64,000 bases of DNA. Origin: Siphonodentalium dalli. Its lineage: Eukaryota > Mollusca > Scaphopoda > Gadilida > Siphonodentaliidae. The position numbers were made by a program, and so were the translations under genes. The DNA lies in assembly GCA_032622095.1 (NCBI GenBank), contig CP136069.1:182951122-183015121 (forward strand), written 5' to 3'. The notes beneath the pieces are model-generated. The model worked only from the letters and a program-made list of their open reading frames with translations. It searched no databases and had not been told where the DNA came from. How positions within the stretch are numbered: the stretch's first letter is position 1; every line of letters begins with the position of its first letter. Positions 53,986-64,000 of the stretch are shown piece after piece.

Positions 53986-54472
53986 CGAGCAAATTCAACA
54001 AACATCATGAACCCCCAGGGTATTCATACAAAGTCTTCTGAATTTGTAGGCAGTCAAAACCCATAACCACATTGAATCAGTTGTGTATTATATGTGTATA
54101 CTTTAACAAAGTGTTGTCATCAACACTGTTTTCCTTTTTTTATAAATATAATCAGGGTTCCAGGCTATTTTTTGCGAAGCCCAGTATGATTCTTATTCTG
54201 TTGTTAGCAAGGAAACCAAGACCCGAATAGAAAGACGGTATCTCTTAAGCCTAAGTAGATTTCGTAAACGCTTATTTCATGTTTCGACGATTTAGTCTGA
54301 TTGGCAGCATTAATTATCACACATCGCATTGTTTCCGAACAAACTGGTATCGGTATATATTGGCCCAGTGTTAAAATAGTTCACATTTAGTGTTTTTTCA
54401 GCGGAACAGAACCAATAATAAATTATAATTTACGTGTATGTTTTTGTTGTAACCTGAATGCAACTTTAAAAA
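53986..54472. other. No gene recognised
   Basis: AT-rich, no domain or repeat recognised. Confidence 0.35.
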
Positions 54473-55905
54473 CCAACAGTATTATAACATTATAAAACCA
54501 ACAGTATTATAACATTATAAAACCAACAGTATTATAACATTATAACATTATAACATTATAAAACCAACAGTATTATAACATTATAACATTATAACATTAT
54601 AAAACCAACAGTATTATAACATTATAACATTATAACATTATAAAACCAACAGTATTATAACATTATAACATTATAACATTATAAAACCAACAGTATTATA
54701 ACATTATAACATTATAACATTATAAAACCAACAGTATTATAACATTATAACATTATAACATTATAAAACCAACAGTATTATAACATTATAACATTATAAC
54801 ATTATAACATTATAAAACCAACAGTATTATAACATTATAACATTATAACATTATAAAACCAACAGTATTATAACATTATAACATTATAACATTATAAAAC
54901 CAACAGTATTATAACATTATAACACTATAACATTATAACATTATAAAACCAACAGTATTATAACATTATAACATTATAACATTATAAAACCAACAGTATT
55001 ATAACATTATAACATTATAACATTATAAAACCAACAGTATTATAACATTATAACATTATAACATTATAAAACCAACAGTATTATAACATTATAACATTAT
55101 AAAACCAACAGTATTATAACATTATAACATTATAACATTATAACATTATAAAACCAACAGTATTATAACATTATAACATTATAAAACCAACAGTATTATA
55201 ACATTATAACATTATAACATTATAAAACCAACAGTATTATAACATTATAACATTATAACATTATAAAACCAACAGTATTATAACATTATAACATTATAAC
55301 ATTATAAAACCAACAGTATTATAACATTATAACATTATAACATTATAACATTATAAAACCAACAGTATTATAACATTATAACATTATAACATTATAAAAC
55401 CAACAGTATTATAACATTATAACATTATAACATTATAAAACCAACAGTATTATAACATTAACAGTATTATAACATTAACAGTATTATAACATTAACAGTA
55501 TTATAACATTATAACATTATAACATTATAACATTATAACATTATAAAACCAACAGTATTATAACATTATAACATTATAACATTATAACATTATAAAACCA
55601 ACAGTATTATAACATTATAACATTATAAAACCAACAGTATTATAACATTATAACATTATAACATTATAAAACCAACAGTATTATAACATTATAACATTAT
55701 AACATTATAAAACCAACAGTATTATAACATTATAACATTATAAAACCAACAGTATTATAACATTAACAGTATTATAACATTATAAAACCAACAGTATCAT
55801 AACATTATAAAACCAACAGTATCATAACATTATAACATTATAAAACCAACAGTATTATAACATTATAACATTATAACATTATAAAACCAACAGTATTATA
55901 ACATT
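54473..55905 (+). repeat. 1.4-kb composite minisatellite: (ataacatt)n with a 17-bp spacer
   Basis: Blocks of one to six ataacatt octamers alternate with ataaaaccaacagtatt. More than 30 spacer copies are present, nearly invariant except for rare single changes (cactataac, gtatcataac). A few places use a shorter aacagtattataacatt form. No ORF. Confidence 0.95.
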
Positions 55906-56494: not shown

Positions 56495-57207
56495 TATATA
56501 TTTTGGAAGATCTGTGTGTCTGTGTGTGTGTGTGTGATCGCGATGGACTCGAAAACGACCGAGCCGATTTTGATGAAACTTGGTATGTGGGGGTATTTTC
56601 TGTCGGGAAGTGGCATAGGCCTATTAATTTTCAGATCCGAGCTCAACTTGTCACGTGCCGAGGTCAAATCTGGTTTTACGCCGTTTTGCGCTAATATATT
56701 TCAGTTCGGTGCTCACAAATCGATTCGATATAGCGCGAATAATAAATTGCCAGTCATATAATTTGCACGGTTAGAATCTGTGGCGCTTCATCTTTCCAAT
56801 GATGTATCACACGCCTGTGTACGTTTAAAGTTTCTACCTTAATTATCGGGAAGAACGCAGGACCATGCTTCGCTCATCGAAAAACATTGCGTAAATATAT
56901 TACGCCATCAACAGTTCGTGACGTGATCGCGTTAACTCTTAACCGGCCGATGTCGCGTTAACTCATCACCGGCCGAGGTATCCGCAAATGACATTGTGCT
57001 ATATATCTCGTAAACGGGTGGAGCTATCGACTTGAAATTTGGTATGTGTATGTATCTTGCCCGTGCCCGTGCCCGTGCCCGTGCCCGTGCCCGAGCCCGT
57101 GCGACGCCAGCTTCGCGCATGCGCAGACCAGATCTCGGAAACGGGTGGAGCTATCGACTTGAAATTTGGTTTTTGAATAGCCCGGACGAAGTCGGGTCAC
57201 CTTCTAG
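56495..57207 (+). mobile_element. Helitron-like non-autonomous element (3' end recognised)
   Basis: The right end has a short hairpin, cccggacgaagtcgggt (57181-57197), followed by cacctt and CTAG before T, the layout expected of Helitron 3' termini. Internal text such as gagccgattttgatgaaact and a second partial copy (cgggtggagctatcgacttg at 57016 and 57145) is typical of such families. The left end near tatattttggaagatc is uncertain. No Rep/helicase ORF. Confidence 0.6.
57059..57102 (+). repeat. gcccgt hexanucleotide microsatellite, about 7 copies
   Basis: The GC-rich 6-bp repeat gives Ala-Arg ORFs on both strands, which are artefacts. It lies within the Helitron-like element. Confidence 0.95.
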
Positions 57208-57412
57208 TACAATATACAATGCACATCGTGTAGAGAGTCCTATATTGGACAGACCTGACGGAAAGAATGCGGCTACACCGTCAACACACAATGTATATAT
57301 ATATACCATCATATGTATACCACAAGATACCCCGTGGCGAACATCTTGATTTTTGTGGGAGGGGAAACTTCTCTATTTTATCATGTTATGGGCCGATCTT
57401 CAGGTTCCGCCA

Positions 57413-57863
57413 TTTTTATTTTGTATTGTGACGTCACTTCCGGGAGGTTGGTAGGTGACGCCATGATGGAGTTTAGTTTCGGATTCAAAAGCTTCCGGAA
57501 TTTTTCTTCCTTTTGAAGTCTTTTGAATCTGCTAACTTCCATCATCTTGTGTAATAGGAAAATCCAGAAGGATTTACCACCACAGTCATCGAGATGTCCA
57601 CTTAAGGGAATCATCCGTAATGCCGGATGTTTTATCTGCGAGCGGTGGATCCGTGTTCTTTCCACAAGCGAATTTCCCGTCTCTCCAACATAGAATTACA
57701 TACACCCGAACATATTATAACATAAATTAGATTTTGGGATTTGCAGTCCATGTCTTCATTAGGGCGAACATCTTGTCCATACTTTAATAGGAAGTGTGTC
57801 CCGGTTAATATACAGAAACATGTCCCGCATCTGGGGTCGCCACATTTGGTGATTTCTTTATCT
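57413..57863 (-). pseudogene. Penelope-like element, inverted 3' segment (GIY-YIG end)
   Basis: On the minus strand it encodes EITKCGDPRCGTCFCILTGT, DVRPNEDMDCKSQNLIYVII, then RTRIHRSQIKHPALRMIPLS and FKRLQKEEKFRKLLNP. This is the same C-terminal zinc-finger-like and GIY-YIG endonuclease region as at 60315-60721, plus the 3' flank (gtgacgtcacaatacaaaat in reverse). A frameshift lies in the GIY-YIG core. Its inverted relation to the plus-strand copy fits the known Penelope arrangement of terminal segments in inverted orientation. Confidence 0.85.
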
Positions 57864-58128
57864 ATAAAAAATATGGAAAATTCATTTCTTGCGAAAAAAG
57901 GATACATTCCCTATAATAAATATGGAAAATTAATTTCTTGCGAAAAAAGGATACATTCTGGGTCGAAAGCTGGGCGAAGGTTCGTTCGGCAAGATCAGAG
58001 AATGCGTATACAATAATGGAAAGAAAGCCGTCGAAATGGCGGTGAAAATAATCAATAAGGGGAATGCTTCACCCGAGTTCCTAGAAAAGTTCTTACCGAG
58101 AGAAATAAACGTTCTCTCGTTTTTATAA
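57862..58128 (+). pseudogene. TSSK-type serine/threonine kinase fragment (start codon to helix C)
   Basis: An uninterrupted frame from 57931 reads KKGYILGRKLGEGSFGKIRE, VEMAVKIINKG, then SPEFLEKFLPREINVLSFL and TAA at 58126-58128. Visible parts are the glycine loop GEGSFG, the ATP-anchoring Lys of MAVKII, and the helix-C Glu in FLPREINVL. Phe-Leu-Pro-Arg-Glu after Phe-Leu-Glu-Lys is characteristic of testis-specific serine kinases. The kinase start (MENSFLAKKGYI) is present at 57873 but belongs to a 49-bp tandem duplication (57862-57910 and 57911-57959). In the second copy its TCA is TAA. The catalytic loop, DFG and C-lobe are absent. It lies between the inverted and direct parts of a Penelope-like element. 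Confidence 0.8.
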
Positions 58129-58130
58129 GG

Positions 58131-60773
58131 GGGCAATCACAATGTAGGAGACAACCAGAACCACGACAACGTTCTCGGAGTTGGTCTATTAAAACACCAC
58201 GACGGAATATATCACGTGGTCGGTCACCAAATAAGCTGAAACCGAGAAAGGCACCAGCCAACAAGAACCCCAGAAGAACAAGTAAGAGCATACGCGGTTC
58301 AAGGCAATATTCAAAATCACGATCTCCGAACAGGGGACGACATGGACCACTAAAACGTTGGGACAAAGCTGCGAATACCCCCAGAATGACCAAAACATCT
58401 GAACGTGTAGTGCATTTTTTAGGGAGCGGCCAGGCCAGAGCCAGCAAAGAAAAATCAGCCAGTCCCACGCACAGTCAAATAGAAATCATGTACATCCCAA
58501 GATTTTCAATCTGTCCAGCCGTAAACTCGATGATGACGAAATTAAACTCCTTGGGCGCGGAATGAAATTCACACCAGTTCCAATTAAAAATTGTGAAGAA
58601 TTGCATTCGGACATAGACGAGTTCTGTCGCAAAATACGCCTTAAGGAATTTTTCGCGGACAAAGATTCACACAGCGATGGTTCTTTGGTCTGCAACAAGT
58701 CGTCATTCACACCACGTCAATGTCGAAATTACGCACTGGACGAATACGTGAATAACCTAACAACCATGCCTCTAAATTAACCCCCTGCTGCAGTCCGGGA
58801 CAATATACCAAAGTCACAGAGAAAAGCATTGGACAGACTAAAACAGGACAGTTCTGTTATTATTAAGCAAGCCTATAAAGGGGGTGCAGGTGTTGTTATG
58901 GATCGTGATTATTATCAGTTAAAAGCAGAGTTTCTCCTTAAGGACAGAACCACATACACGGAAGTGGCAGATACTAATAATCAAAATATTATGCGCAAAA
59001 TTAGCAAACTGATAAAAAAAAACATTCACAGTGTCTTACAGAAAAAGAAGTTGACTATCTCACCATATTTGAACCTCGGTGCAGTAATTTTTATGGATTA
59101 CCAAAAATTCATAAATCTAAACTAATACAGCAATCAATTCAATGCCAGAAGAGCGAAAATATTGAGTTATTAACACCCGAGGACCTCAAATTAAGACCAA
59201 TCGTCGCCGACCCAGTATGTCCGACGCACAGATTGAGTAACCTTTTGGACATTCTGTTAAAACCACTGTTACCTAATATTCCAAGTTATCTACGGGACGA
59301 TATACAGTTCATTCGAACCCTACCCAGGACTGTCAAACAAGACGCTAAACTAGCTAGTTTTGACGTTGTGAGTCTGTATAGCACCATTCCACATAATTTA
59401 GGCTTGGAAGCTATACGATATTGGATTGATAAATGCAGAGAATCAATAGATGAACGCTTCACAAAAGAGTTTATCACTGAAGGACTACAACTTTGTATTG
59501 GAAAATAAAATTTTGTTCTTCAACGACAGATTCTATCGACAAATAATTGGTACTGCCATGGGCACTAAAGTAGCCCCAACTTATGCAAATCTAACAGTGG
59601 GATATCTAGAAGCAAAATTGCACGAGATCATATCCAACAAATTCAACGATTCATATGCAACATGTATAGGACAATCGTGGAAACGTTATATTGATGACTG
59701 CTTTCTCATTTGGGACCAACTCAATGGGACTTGAATGAATTCCACAATATCCTCAACTCACTAAATCCGGCAATACAATTCACGATAGAAACCGACAATA
59801 ACGAGTTGCCATTCCTGGATGTCCTCGTGAAAAAATCAGCAGAACGAATCACGACGGATATTTACTATAAACCTACCGACACGCATCATTAAGTCGTGTC
59901 ATCCATCACACACCAAACTGAATGTTCCGTATTGCCTCGCACAGAGGGTTTGTACCGTTGTGGACGATATCGCGCAGAGAAACATCCGACTAGGGAAACT
60001 CCGGACATTCCTCTTGACACAAGAATACCCGAAAAAACTAATTGATAATGGTATTGTTGAAGCCAAGAAAACTCCTCTCATAGAGCATGCATGCACAGAC
60101 AAAACTAAAGAATGTAATCCCGATCTCATTCCGTGTGTGGTTACACACAATCCTCGCCATCCAAATGTTATGCAAACGGCTAAATCATTGATACCAATGC
60201 TTCACAAAAGTCCAAAGATGAAGCAATTGGTAAAAACTGATCACTTACTACAGAGCAAGCGACAGCCTTGGAATATATAAACGATTCTAACACGAGCCAA
60301 GTTTGATGGTGGTGAAAAACGAGATAAAGAAATCACCAAATGTGGCGACCCCAGATGCGGGACATGTTTCTGTATATTAACCGGGACACACTTCCTATTA
60401 AAGAATGGACAAGATGTTCGCCCTAATGAAGACATGGACTGCAAATCCCAAAATATAATTTATGTTATAATATGTTCGGGGTGTAGGGAATTCTATGTTG
60501 GAGAGACGGGAAATTCCCTTGTGGAAAGAACACGGATCCACCGCTCGCAGATCAAACATCCGGCATTACGGATGATTCCCTTAAGTGGACATCTCGATGA
60601 CTGTGGCGGTAAATCCTTCCGGATTTTCCCATTACACGAGATGATGGAAGTTAGCAGATTCAAAAGACTTCAAAAGGAAGAAAAATTCCGGAAGCTTTTG
60701 AATCCAAACTCCATCATCTAATCATGGCGTCACCTACCAACCTCCCGGAAGTGACGTCACAATACAAAATAAA
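58131..60773 (+). pseudogene. Penelope-like element: basic N-terminus, RT, GIY-YIG endonuclease; multiply broken
   Basis: Order of parts: an Arg/Ser-rich basic segment (58131-58470, with RSRSPNRG-like text); the conserved N-terminal block (FNLSSRKLDDDEIKLLGRG and KNCEELHSDIDEFCRKIRLK); TAA at 58778; KGGAGVVMDRDYY; FYGLPKIHK at about 59087; RPIVADP; SFDVVSLYSTIP (RT A motif); GTAMGTKVAPTYANL; catalytic RYIDDCFLIW; ELPFLDVLV; TAA at 60278; KCGDPRCGTC zinc-finger-like motif; and GIY-YIG (NIIYVIICSGC, REFYVGETGNS) to TAA at 60719-60721. Frame changes occur near 58480, 59070, 59490, 59720 and 59890. RT would copy element RNA and GIY-YIG would cut the target. This copy cannot encode an intact protein. 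Confidence 0.9.
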
Positions 60774-60877
60774 AGGACATGAAAGGACTAGTTTTAAAGC
60801 CAAATGGTGTGTTTGTGTTTTAATCACATGGTATCTATATATACCACTGTACGTTTGAACTTTCTACTATTCAATAT

Positions 60878-61251
60878 ATATATATTTCATTTTTGTTTGG
60901 GGACTTCTGTCTGTCTGTCTGTTTGTCTGTTTGTCTGTTAGCAATGGCCGGGAAAACTGCCGGACGGATTTCGACGAAATTTGATACCTAGGGGTACTTT
61001 TGTCCGGGTCAAATCGTGACCCCGATCTGACCTTGACCTTCAAAATGGTCAATTAAATGTCAAATCGGGTAAAACGGACGGATTTCGACGAAATTTGATA
61101 CCTAGGGATACTTTTGTCCGGGAAGTGTTTTCGACGGGTCAAATCGTGACCCCGACCTGACCTTGACCTTCAAAGTGGTCAATTCAAGGATATTAGATCC
61201 GGATGAAAGCAGAGGGGAAACAGCCCGAACGAAGTCGGGTCCACCAGCTAG
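60878..61251 (+). mobile_element. Helitron-like non-autonomous element (3' end recognised)
   Basis: The end hairpin cccgaacgaagtcgggt (61224-61240) is followed by ccacca and CTAG before a TA-rich target. The body has a tctgtctgtctgtttg run and two direct copies of gacggatttcgacgaaattt. Related to the element ending at 57207. No ORF. Confidence 0.6.
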
Positions 61252-61433
61252 TATATATATATTTGTTTTTTTTCTGTCTTTTTTTCTTTTTTTTTCTTCT
61301 TAGTATTCTCAGAATTTGTATCACTTTGGTTGCATTATCGGCGATATTAAATCGATTGCCACACGATTCCATGCAGACGGCAGGTTGATTAAAATAAATG
61401 TACACTACCATACGTCTTCAATAGGGTATTTAC

Positions 61434-61611
61434 CATATGTAGTTGGTACCGTCGTGGTTGTTGTTGTTGTTGTTGTCGGTGTCGTTGTTGTTGTCGTTGT
61501 AGGTGTCACACTTTTCAAAGGAATACATCGGTATCTGAGTTGTGGCAACTCGGTAGGTGCGCAGATCGCGTTGGTACCACATGGAGTACTGTAGCATGGG
61601 TGGGAATCATC
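61434..61611 (-). CDS. PAN-EGF-CTLD lectin, exon 2 (EGF-like module and Thr-rich stalk)
   Basis: The acceptor is aataaatgtttcag/GATGATTCC (phase 0) and the donor is actacatatg/GTAAAT (phase 1), 178 bp. It encodes residues 106-164: DDSHPCYSTPCGTNAIC, then LRYRC, a four-cysteine EGF-like module (Cys111, 116, 122, 135) that lacks the last cysteines of a full EGF. A tract of about 20 Thr broken by Pro follows, probably an O-glycosylated stalk. The Thr tract is a GTT/GTC-type microsatellite on the plus strand, so its length is likely variable. Phase 0 matches the exon 1 donor and phase 1 matches exon 3. Confidence 0.75.
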
Positions 61612-61804
61612 CTGAAACATTTATTCCCGATTTGAGTCTGACAACAGGCCGTGGTCGAAAATATGACAATCGGTGCCAAACTGGCGAAAAATTATATCTC
61701 TTATTGTGAGCATATCGCTTTGTCAGCACATGGAGTCTCGTGGCATGGGTGAGACTGGTTCTGAACAAACTATTCTGGTTTGGTCTGGAATAATGTATAG
61801 TCCT

Positions 61805-62266
61805 TTAACCCTTTCAGTGCCAGGTCCGATTTTTGTATCAACCGATATACCCTGTGCAAATGCATTCTCTTATATATGCGAGTCGACCATAGTTAGTCTC
61901 GCATATATAAGAGAATGCATTGGCCTAACAATTTTTCATCATTTGTTATTATTTTTTACAATATTTTACAATTTTAATAATTTTTTCTTACATTCATTAA
62001 CAGACTTATTTTGTCGGTTTGGTGCCAGAGAATCTTACGTTTTTCATGGACATCAAAATTATTACTATGAATACTTGTTGATAGTTTTGAGTTATAACAT
62101 GCCTCTAAGGTTTTATCCAGTTTGTTTTTAAATTCGCTATAGCATGCTAAAGCATACCCAAAAAATATTCAACCCAAAAAAACAAATTCTTTTTTTTATT
62201 TTTTTTGCACTCTACAGACCATAAATTAGGGTCGATGAGATCGGCCCCTGGCACTGAAAGGCTTAA
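61805..62266. mobile_element. piggyBac-type MITE, TTAA-flanked, with central palindrome
   Basis: TTAA (61805-61808) then ccctttcagtgccagg. The other end is cctggcactgaaaggc then TTAA (62263-62266), an inverted pair with one mismatch. The centre (about 61858-61924) has aatgcattctcttatatatg and its mirror image. TTAA flanks and CCC-starting inverted repeats are piggyBac hallmarks. No transposase, so non-autonomous. Lies in intron 1 of the lectin gene. The minus-strand ORF inside is incidental. Confidence 0.85.
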
Positions 62267-62354
62267 CCCGTATAGTAAACGAATGGGATGAGGCTTGTGT
62301 GGATTTCGTCCCGAAACATTTAATCCAGATTTCAATTATGATAACAGTCAGTAG

Positions 62355-62418
62355 TCGAAAATAGTACAATCGGTTCCAAAATAGTACAATCGGTTCCAAA
62401 ATAGTACAATCGGTTCCA
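62355..62418 (+). repeat. 20-bp tandem repeat, 3 copies
   Basis: aaaatagtacaatcggttcc repeated exactly. A further decayed relative (aaaatatgacaatcggtgcc) lies at 61658. Confidence 0.95.
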
Positions 62419-62672
62419 AACTGGTTGGCATGTGTTATCTATATTATTAAATGATCGTGCTGGCCGTCTTATGGTGAAGGGAAGTAAGAATATTAAGTCC
62501 AAGATCAAATATATAGATCACGTATAGCAGATCTACCCTGTGTGAACACATATCCAAATTAATCACTGACTATTCCAATGCATGCTTTCACAATTGATGG
62601 GATAATGAATTTAGTGAAGAAAGGGTTACTTCCAAAGTTTGGAACTGAAAGTACATGTACATTTTTGCTCAC

Positions 62673-62987
62673 CAGAATAGTTTTATTAGCGAACACCATC
62701 GATGATTCGTGATTCAGCACCTCGCCGCTACCAGTACTGAGGAGGTGACACATCGTACTATTTGCACTGTATGCCACCCTGACGCATCCCTTGGTATACG
62801 CGCACATCCTTCTACACCTTGCAATGTTAATGCTTCTGGCGCTGAGCTGAATGATCAGAGCTGAATTCACAGCTTTCTGCAGCAAAGTAGGCGGCTCACA
62901 CATTTCGGCACACGTATGTTCCCAGAAGGTGAGCACTGGCATCAAAGCAATCAGACACGCTGTCCGTGATAACATGTAGCGTTGCAT
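62673..62987 (-). CDS. PAN-EGF-CTLD lectin, exon 1 (signal peptide and PAN/apple domain)
   Basis: ATG at 62987-62985 follows aacacaggaatcacaacg. Residues 1-27 are a signal peptide (basic MQRYMLSR, hydrophobic ACLIALMPVLTF, likely cut after HTCA). Residues 28-105 contain a PAN/apple-like core, ARCRRMC, AYTKGCVRVAY and STMCHLL (Cys58, 62, 68, 80), a fold for protein or sugar binding in extracellular proteins. N-glycosylation sites are N76 and N101. The donor tattctg/GTGAGC ends the exon in phase 0, matching exon 2. Reading on past the donor gives an apparent 142-residue ORF, but the splice model keeps 105. Some PAN domains have six cysteines and this one looks short, so PAN is a pattern call. 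Confidence 0.75.
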
Positions 62988-63047
62988 CGTTGTGATTCCT
63001 GTGTTGTTTATCAGCTTAAATCTCAGCGATTTTCTGAAACAGCGAAC

Positions 63048-63075
63048 ATAATTTTATGCGCGGTATATACACATA
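63048..63075 (-). promoter_or_regulatory. Candidate TATA-type core promoter of the lectin gene
   Basis: On the minus strand gtgtatataccgcgc is about 75-85 bp before the exon 1 ATG, leaving room for a short 5' UTR. Also cataaaattatg nearby. Position is reasonable but TATA-like text is common in this AT-rich DNA. Confidence 0.25.
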
Positions 63076-63734
63076 AGGGTGTCTCTCCTGTTCCGCGTTA
63101 CTCTTCATGCATCATCAAACGTGCGCCGGATGCAACATTGTAGGTTATGTCTAACTTAACATTATTTGTTGACACCTTATGTTAATACATGCATATTGTT
63201 TCTGTTCTGATACCACATATTATGATAACAGCAATAATATTGAATATCGATACGCGGGATTTACAGTCGGTCAAAAGATCTTCAGAGCTTGTGTTTGTAA
63301 TATGTTTAAATACCTCCGACTTTTAAGTAAAAAATGTCTTATCTTAGTCAATTTACAAGCGGTACGTGTGATTGATACACCGCTGCATGTTAGCCGGTAT
63401 TCTGCATGGCTTTGTACCTCCGAATGGTATTTTATATTAGAATAAAAAGGTGACCAGTTAACCGAAAAATTGTGTTATTTGATGACAAGAGTCAATTGTT
63501 GTCCGTTTTCGGATGTAGTTGTGTTAATCGGGCTCCAGATTTCCTGTGACAGGCATCAACAGATCAACCACGTCGCATCCGATCATCACTGTGCCGGAAA
63601 ATATATTAATACATGCTACATTTATTATTGAGAACTATGGAAACATATGGTAATGACATTTATATCCTTGATCGCATTTTTGCTCTTTGATATGGAGTAT
63701 TCACCCCCTATGCTGACTGATATTCATTATTCAG
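63076..63734. other. No gene recognised
   Basis: Upstream region of the lectin gene and downstream flank. The plus-strand ORF 63179-63445 has no domain or start context that I trust. Confidence 0.3.
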
Positions 63735-63927
63735 GGGAGTTGATGACGGCATCGCGTATGTTCATTCGCCGAGAAGTTCTTATGATGACCAGAATTACTA
63801 TCACTTCAGTGAACTACGCGCTGATATGTATGAAAACTACATAGCCGAAAGTCCTGCTTGCAGTTTTGGGAACCTTTGGAAGATGCATATACCATTTCTT
63901 TTTTATGTGTCCTTTATAGCAAAATGA
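63735..63927 (+). CDS. Exon candidate, tyrosine-rich cytoplasmic-tail-like
   Basis: The acceptor ctgactgatattcattattcag/GGGAGTT is good, with branch-point-like ctgac. The frame then reads DDGIAYVHSPRSSYDDQNYY, HFSELRADMYENYIAESPAC and SFGNLW, to TGA at 63925-63927. Several tyrosines sit in SH2-type contexts (YENY fits a Grb2-like YxN motif), as in signalling tails of membrane receptors. The last ~15 residues are hydrophobic and could be read-through past an unseen donor. No ATG precedes it, so it would be an internal or last exon of a plus-strand gene. Family not recognised. Confidence 0.35.
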
Positions 63928-64000
63928 ACTGTTGAAACTTGACGATAAGTTAAACCGCGAACGCTTCGATCATTATAACCGACATTGATCGTTTTGTTTT

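Follow-up and report, generated by a model that had tools for sequence, protein, structure and literature searches.

On balance, we consider that the insert at positions 57414 (its left end) to 60774 of the window, i.e. the whole 64,000-nucleotide stretch of DNA analysed, arose by a single, old insertion of a Penelope-like element (PLE) that trapped the 5' end of the message of a TSSK-like kinase. The initial annotation had placed a TSSK-like kinase N-lobe between an inverted 3' segment and the main body of a PLE, an observation that holds with corrections: the alignment of the arms and the matches in Pfam and the PDB agree on this layout. Capture within one insertion is the best-supported reading, the kinase lying between the outer 3' ends of the element, in sense orientation and with no further kinase sequence found outside in the window, although two of the arguments originally given for it fail.

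The insert starts, on the minus strand, with the final 450 bp of the PLE in inverted, 5'-truncated form (57414-57863), comprising the GIY-YIG domain and the 3' end, followed by the kinase piece, in sense orientation to the element, and then by the PLE body. Both outer ends consist of the same PLE 3' terminus, arranged head to head, and the kinase fragment is located inside them. Aligned with its counterpart at 60322-60774, the inverted arm shows 13 differences in 449 ungapped sites plus five gap columns; the outermost 54 nt of both arms are identical. The insert thereby carries the inverted terminal copy that characterizes an EN-containing PLE. Fold-back artefacts are a typical risk of inverted repeats, and the structure could be read as an assembly chimera or a palindromic sequencing artefact. 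However, a fold-back would be near identical, whereas these arms differ by substitutions and indels and the arm ends 450 nt in, which leaves such an artefact extremely improbable.

Among the ten arm differences up to position 60700, seven are nonsynonymous, one being a stop (three further differences lie nearer the ORF end), as expected of DNA that was dead after one event. The arms have decayed no differently from the 49-bp duplication described below (13/449 versus 2/48 sites, the edge base of the duplication left out; Fisher p 0.65). Equal arm divergence would also result from two independent insertions of similar age, which counts against the single-insertion reading.

The coding body of the PLE (58222-60721, plus strand), delimited by Pfam and by reading of the frames, consists of a basic N-terminal region, RT-like segments with GTAMGTKVAPTYANL and YIDD, and a GIY-YIG domain. 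It is followed by a short 3' end (60722-60774, plus strand), recognized by repeat comparison, which terminates in ...ACAAAATAAAA, the same terminus as in the inverted arm. The ORF of the body is broken by several frameshifts and stops. We take SFDVVSLYSTIP, GTAMGTKVAPTYANL and YIDD to be RT motifs of Penelope-like elements; the RT profiles match one upstream fragment weakly and below the cut-off (RVT_1, E 0.025; group II RT, E 9e-4), and a PDB sequence search with the RT-like fragment gave no match. The GIY-YIG domain (PF01541), C-terminal to the RT-like segments and near the 3' end of the PLE, scores 25.4 bits, i.e. over the Pfam cut-off of 22.6; the PDB sequence search with this ORF returned two weak matches (E 0.51 and 0.93), neither of them an endonuclease. 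Searches of viral contigs with two RT fragments and the EN confirmed none of 9, 7 and 4 pattern matches, and a search of genome contigs with an RT fragment confirmed one of 42, on a Neobacillus contig (42 residues at 44 %).

The joint between kinase and PLE can be placed only to about 58150-58236, i.e. to about 80 nt. Counted from this uncertain join at 58222, the PLE body has 2,500 bp or 833 codons, compared with 830-842 aa in the Adineta vaga Penelope ORFs without N-rich inserts (PMC3846280), and is therefore near full length. We found no direct repeat of at least 20 nt between the element ends, be it a pLTR, a tail or a partial tandem, and no hammerhead ribozyme at the gathering threshold in the 64-kb window; at E values up to 5, the hammerhead search of 57300-60900 gave two weak, unrelated matches. 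Nor was there a TSD of at least 5 bp around the whole insert (left-flank ends 57407-57416, right-flank starts 60768-60849), a search for which the random control was uninformative, the observed value being zero. The absence of TSD, pLTR and hammerhead counts against a single insertion; direct pLTR copies may, we infer, be lost through 5' truncation.

The kinase fragment occupies 57922 to about 58221 on the plus strand, i.e. 100 codons from a start codon to about beta-strand 5, with in-frame stops at 57931 and 58126, is less well supported beyond 58125, and was identified by Pfam, the PDB search and tblastn. Its N-lobe matches PK_Tyr_Ser-Thr with 26.8 bits (E 4e-6, above the cut-off of 23.1) and Pkinase with 26.5 bits (E 5e-6), the latter falling short of the cut-off of 31.7, which can happen with a fragment. 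The closest PDB relatives are two TSSK6 sequences (E about 4e-10), the next family being RET (6e-4), and tblastn with a TSSK1B sequence matches 57937-58125 (E 3e-12). The features of a TSSK-type N-lobe are present, i.e. the Gly loop, the VAIK-type Lys and a helix C reading FLEKFLPRE, a motif that we take to be typical of TSSKs. In a search of viral contigs, two of 26 pattern matches with the kinase were confirmed, each over 35 residues at 46 %, and the predicted structure of the fragment was uninformative (mean pLDDT 37).

Judged by sequence similarity, 57934-58125 is kinase. The N-lobe described in the initial annotation is real, but probably longer than the 180 bp given there, since the frame runs on to about 58221: beyond the in-frame TAA at 58126 it reads GGNHNVGDNQNHDNVLGVGLLKHHDGIYHVV (HDNVLGV..DGIYHVV). 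This extension (58129-58221) is likely to be the rest of the N-lobe, resembling strands beta4-beta5. The kinase motif for these strands occurs once in the six frames of the window, at this place, against 0.175 expected from 40 Markov shuffles, a post hoc test given that the motif was written after seeing the sequence. The Pfam and PDB matches stop short of the extension, and a shuffle test gave it no significant similarity to TSSK1B, its score being reached by 11373 of 20000 shuffles. An open Arg/Ser-rich frame at 58059-58562, probably the N-terminal region of the PLE, overlaps the kinase end in another frame, so that the border between kinase and element is blurred.

At its upstream side, the kinase piece begins with a 49-bp tandem duplication on the plus strand, the left edge of which lies within 2 nt of the arm junction. 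Copy 1 (57862-57910) holds the kinase 5' end with an ATG at 57873, so that the kinase piece starts 9-11 nt ahead of an ATG; copy 2 (57911-57959), identified by comparison with copy 1 and continuous with the kinase, holds an ATG at 57922 and an in-frame TAA at 57931. The copies differ at three of 49 positions, one of them the last base. For a 358-bp filler, the chance that the edge of a random 49-bp duplication falls within 2 nt of the arm junction is about 2 %, in a post hoc calculation, which argues that the duplication was probably formed together with the join. As 49 cannot be divided by 3, reading from the ATG at 57873 misses the kinase frame; the ATG at 57922 is in frame but runs into TAA at codon 4. 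The fragment is thus left without a working start. The kinase had been credited with its own start codon; ATGs are present, but this start is nominal only. With a kinase that is untranslatable from its start codon and a broken element ORF, the insertion product is dead.

The junction also bears on a different origin, i.e. that the kinase piece is filler, derived from a TSSK locus or from a trapped cDNA and introduced during polymerase-theta-like end joining of two PLE cDNAs rather than by copying through the PLE enzyme. A short overlap and a templated repeat at a join are repair-like marks, and this join shows a 2-nt overlap together with the 49-bp templated repeat; the missing TSD would fit irregular repair as well. 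Nevertheless, one would sooner expect a piece of about 360 bp that starts at an ATG and has the sense of the element to come from the 5' end of an mRNA than to be filler, and we regard this origin as unlikely.

As to the remainder of the kinase, the earlier claim that nothing of it follows the element is borne out by tblastn and Pfam through position 64000. The tblastn search of the 64 kb with TSSK1B gave one significant match, the next best having an E value of 0.72, and the catalytic loop, activation loop and C-lobe of a TSSK were not found in the window by this search. Of a set of 86 ORFs (stop to stop, 85 aa or longer, low-complexity ORFs left out), the 72 outside the insert gave no kinase match in Pfam; of the remaining 14, at 57259-60718, eight were scanned in Pfam, exactly or as near-identical stretches. 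The downstream sequence (60775-64000) contains no kinase sequence and nothing resembling exon 2; an upstream kinase promoter would not be recognizable by similarity search.

The lack of an intron in the kinase piece, previously put forward in favour of capture, fails as an argument. The TSSK1-like gene of the Pacific abalone has four coding exons, with 101 aa encoded by the first, and introns are lacking in five bivalve TSSK-like genes that belong to another group (PMC6905558). Because of these gene structures, the absence of an intron is uninformative, and an intronless piece of 100 codons is to be expected whether the source was genomic DNA or mRNA. If the molluscan mean of 19.8 +/- 9.1 aa for the N-terminal length is applied, the end of abalone exon 1 would fall at about human residue 90 (in our own numbering of TSSK1B), near the end of the fragment, with a spread of about nine residues.

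The near agreement between the 100-codon fragment and the 101 codons of abalone exon 1 would fit an origin in which a TSSK gene or pseudogene resident at this site received two independent insertions of PLEs; the rest of this gene would lie beyond the window or have been deleted. A 5'-truncated copy would then have landed just upstream of the ATG and a longer copy in the opposite direction at or near the end of exon 1; exon 2 could sit past a long intron, and the window holds only 3.2 kb downstream of the insert. On the other side, this requires two copies set tightly against either end of a single 300-bp coding piece, head to head and with similar decay, and the downstream sequence that is available is devoid of kinase. 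Moreover, the sequence after the GTs at about 58216-58226 does not resemble a splice donor, the best TSD candidates for the body alone are 6 nt long and away from its ends, none was found for the arm, and the duplication at the arm junction is left unexplained. Two insertions are therefore, in our judgement, unlikely.

Another option is that the kinase exon was inherited within a PLE subfamily that carries a TSSK first exon, possibly with its promoter, and simply moved with the element. The junction with the kinase is close to where the ORF would be expected to begin, and there is a precedent of two LINE-1 copies with the same RAP1GDS1 5' exons, which were independent events and probably derive from one intronic element (PMC13174262). 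No further copy of 57300-60900 was found in the 64-kb window by blastn (E up to 1e-3), however, and we rate inheritance as very unlikely.

For the favoured single insertion, we envisage that the PLE enzyme would cut both target strands and prime reverse transcription from the 3' end of the element on each side; the two outward-facing PLE 3' ends are as expected if both target strands prime. The Anolis Penelope protein cuts and extends both target strands in vitro (PMC11167929), and inverted terminal copies (pLTR ends) are usual in Penelopes, some of which are described as lacking a TSD (PMC3846280). The first cDNA would have halted after 450 nt, yielding the inverted arm, while the second would have copied about 2.5 kb of the element and then continued into the 5' part of a TSSK mRNA. 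This could reflect a template switch, or a template that was a fusion RNA of TSSK first exon and PLE from the outset, generated by read-through or by cis- or trans-splicing. Lying upstream of the element in the same sense and starting 9-11 nt before the ATG, the kinase has the polarity that follows from reading the element into an mRNA 5' end. The longer cDNA would end 9-11 nt upstream of the start codon, its last 49 nt being re-copied once, perhaps through a jump between templates where the RNA ends at its 5' side, perhaps as a templated insert of end joining or repair, and would finally have been joined to the 450-nt cDNA at the 2-nt overlap. We tentatively consider, as a possibility of low probability, that the PLE was transcribed from the testis-kinase promoter as a TSSK-first-exon/PLE fusion RNA and then retrotransposed, which would be a 5' transduction of the first exon of a germ-line gene.

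Two related repeats, which we take to be Helitron-like, with approximate outer limits, flank the insert at about 56510-57206 and 60885-61251; their 3' ends show a CCCGRACGAAGTCGGG hairpin followed by CTAGT, the terminal hairpins being no more stable than shuffles, and a 48-bp unit common to them recurs at 56560, 60961 and 61075. A Helitron capture of the kinase was considered and rejected, as the kinase lies between and not inside the two copies. Further upstream, 54367-55900 is a long tandem array of AT-rich 8-bp and 41-bp units (TATAACAT / AAACCAACAGTATTATAACATTA), and at the window edge a 317-aa open frame with an RT domain (2-952; RVT_1, E 7e-24) belongs to another retroelement, cut off by this edge. 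Downstream, a near-perfect 27-bp inverted repeat at 61856-61924 (15 nt between the arms, 96 % complementary), nested in a wider 20-bp inverted pair (61805-61824 / 62247-62266), is possibly a small inverted-repeat element. The 72 ORFs outside the insert include one PAN_1 (E 2e-5), one SUEL_Lectin (E 0.002) and two Lectin_C matches (best E 3e-6), which suggests an animal, perhaps mollusc-like genome.

Little is settled about how PLE insertion is completed, and what follows the first cDNA is described as still awaiting validation (PMC11167929). An mRNA start attached to the element at its 5' side, together with a re-copied 5' terminus and an inverted second cDNA, would show in a single natural product the priming at both ends, a change of template and the joining of two cDNAs. 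If such events recur, PLEs would join LINEs as a second retroelement class that attaches first exons of the host to itself, and if the fusion RNA from a TSSK promoter is true, PLEs would share with LINE-1 the ability to borrow promoters of the host and to spread first exons.

Canonical Penelope/Poseidon elements, such as PAc, share with this insert the ORF with RT and GIY-YIG, and their double-strand cutting and extension would give head-to-head 3' ends; they differ in the tandem pLTR and the hammerhead ribozyme described for them (PMC11167929), neither of which was found here. The closest parallel to the putative fused mRNA start comes from LINE-1 (Law et al. 2026, PMC13174262), where 15 of 17 chimeras with mRNA or lncRNA are at transcript beginnings, mostly in sense and mostly on near-full-length elements, six ending exactly at splice donors and four being undetermined; the proposed origins are template switch, RNA ligation or splicing. 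The present insert resembles these in carrying a presumed mRNA start, in sense, on the 5' end of a near-full-length retroelement, with the ATG 9-11 nt from the edge. In contrast, the LINE-1 cases are mammalian and have TSDs and poly(A) in the examples shown, whereas the present case involves a PLE, an inverted second 3' end and no TSD. The bipartite and tripartite LINE chimeras of Magnaporthe grisea likewise unite at least two RNA copies within a single insertion, the tripartite insert being ascribed to double template switches; they differ in that LINE machinery and non-coding RNA and SINE partners are involved and that the tripartite case has a 14-bp TSD (PMC2104539).

Among titles and abstract openings of open-licence papers, we found no report of a PLE joined at its 5' end to an mRNA start, and a paper on bivalve transposons sets PLEs aside (PMC10294476). 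Capture of host genes by PLEs is, however, better documented than the initial annotation assumed, having been published for A. vaga (Arkhipova et al. 2013, PMC3846280), a case cited in a 2019 review as transduction by PLEs (PMC6431247). There, Penelopes are associated with host DNA in the form of NRPS and LRR genes, Pen1 host spacers and N-rich inserts. Like the present insert, these elements are EN-containing, have taken up host DNA and carry inverted terminal copies; the authors propose template jumps. The A. vaga NRPS gene is framed by pLTRs with an 8-bp TSD, has kept its introns and, as described, is accompanied by no element ORF (PMC3846280), whereas here the 5' end of a gene sits on the element body and there is no direct pLTR. 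Capture of host DNA by Penelopes is known, and the fusion of a gene 5' end to a PLE body, as read from this one dead copy, appears to represent a different geometry.
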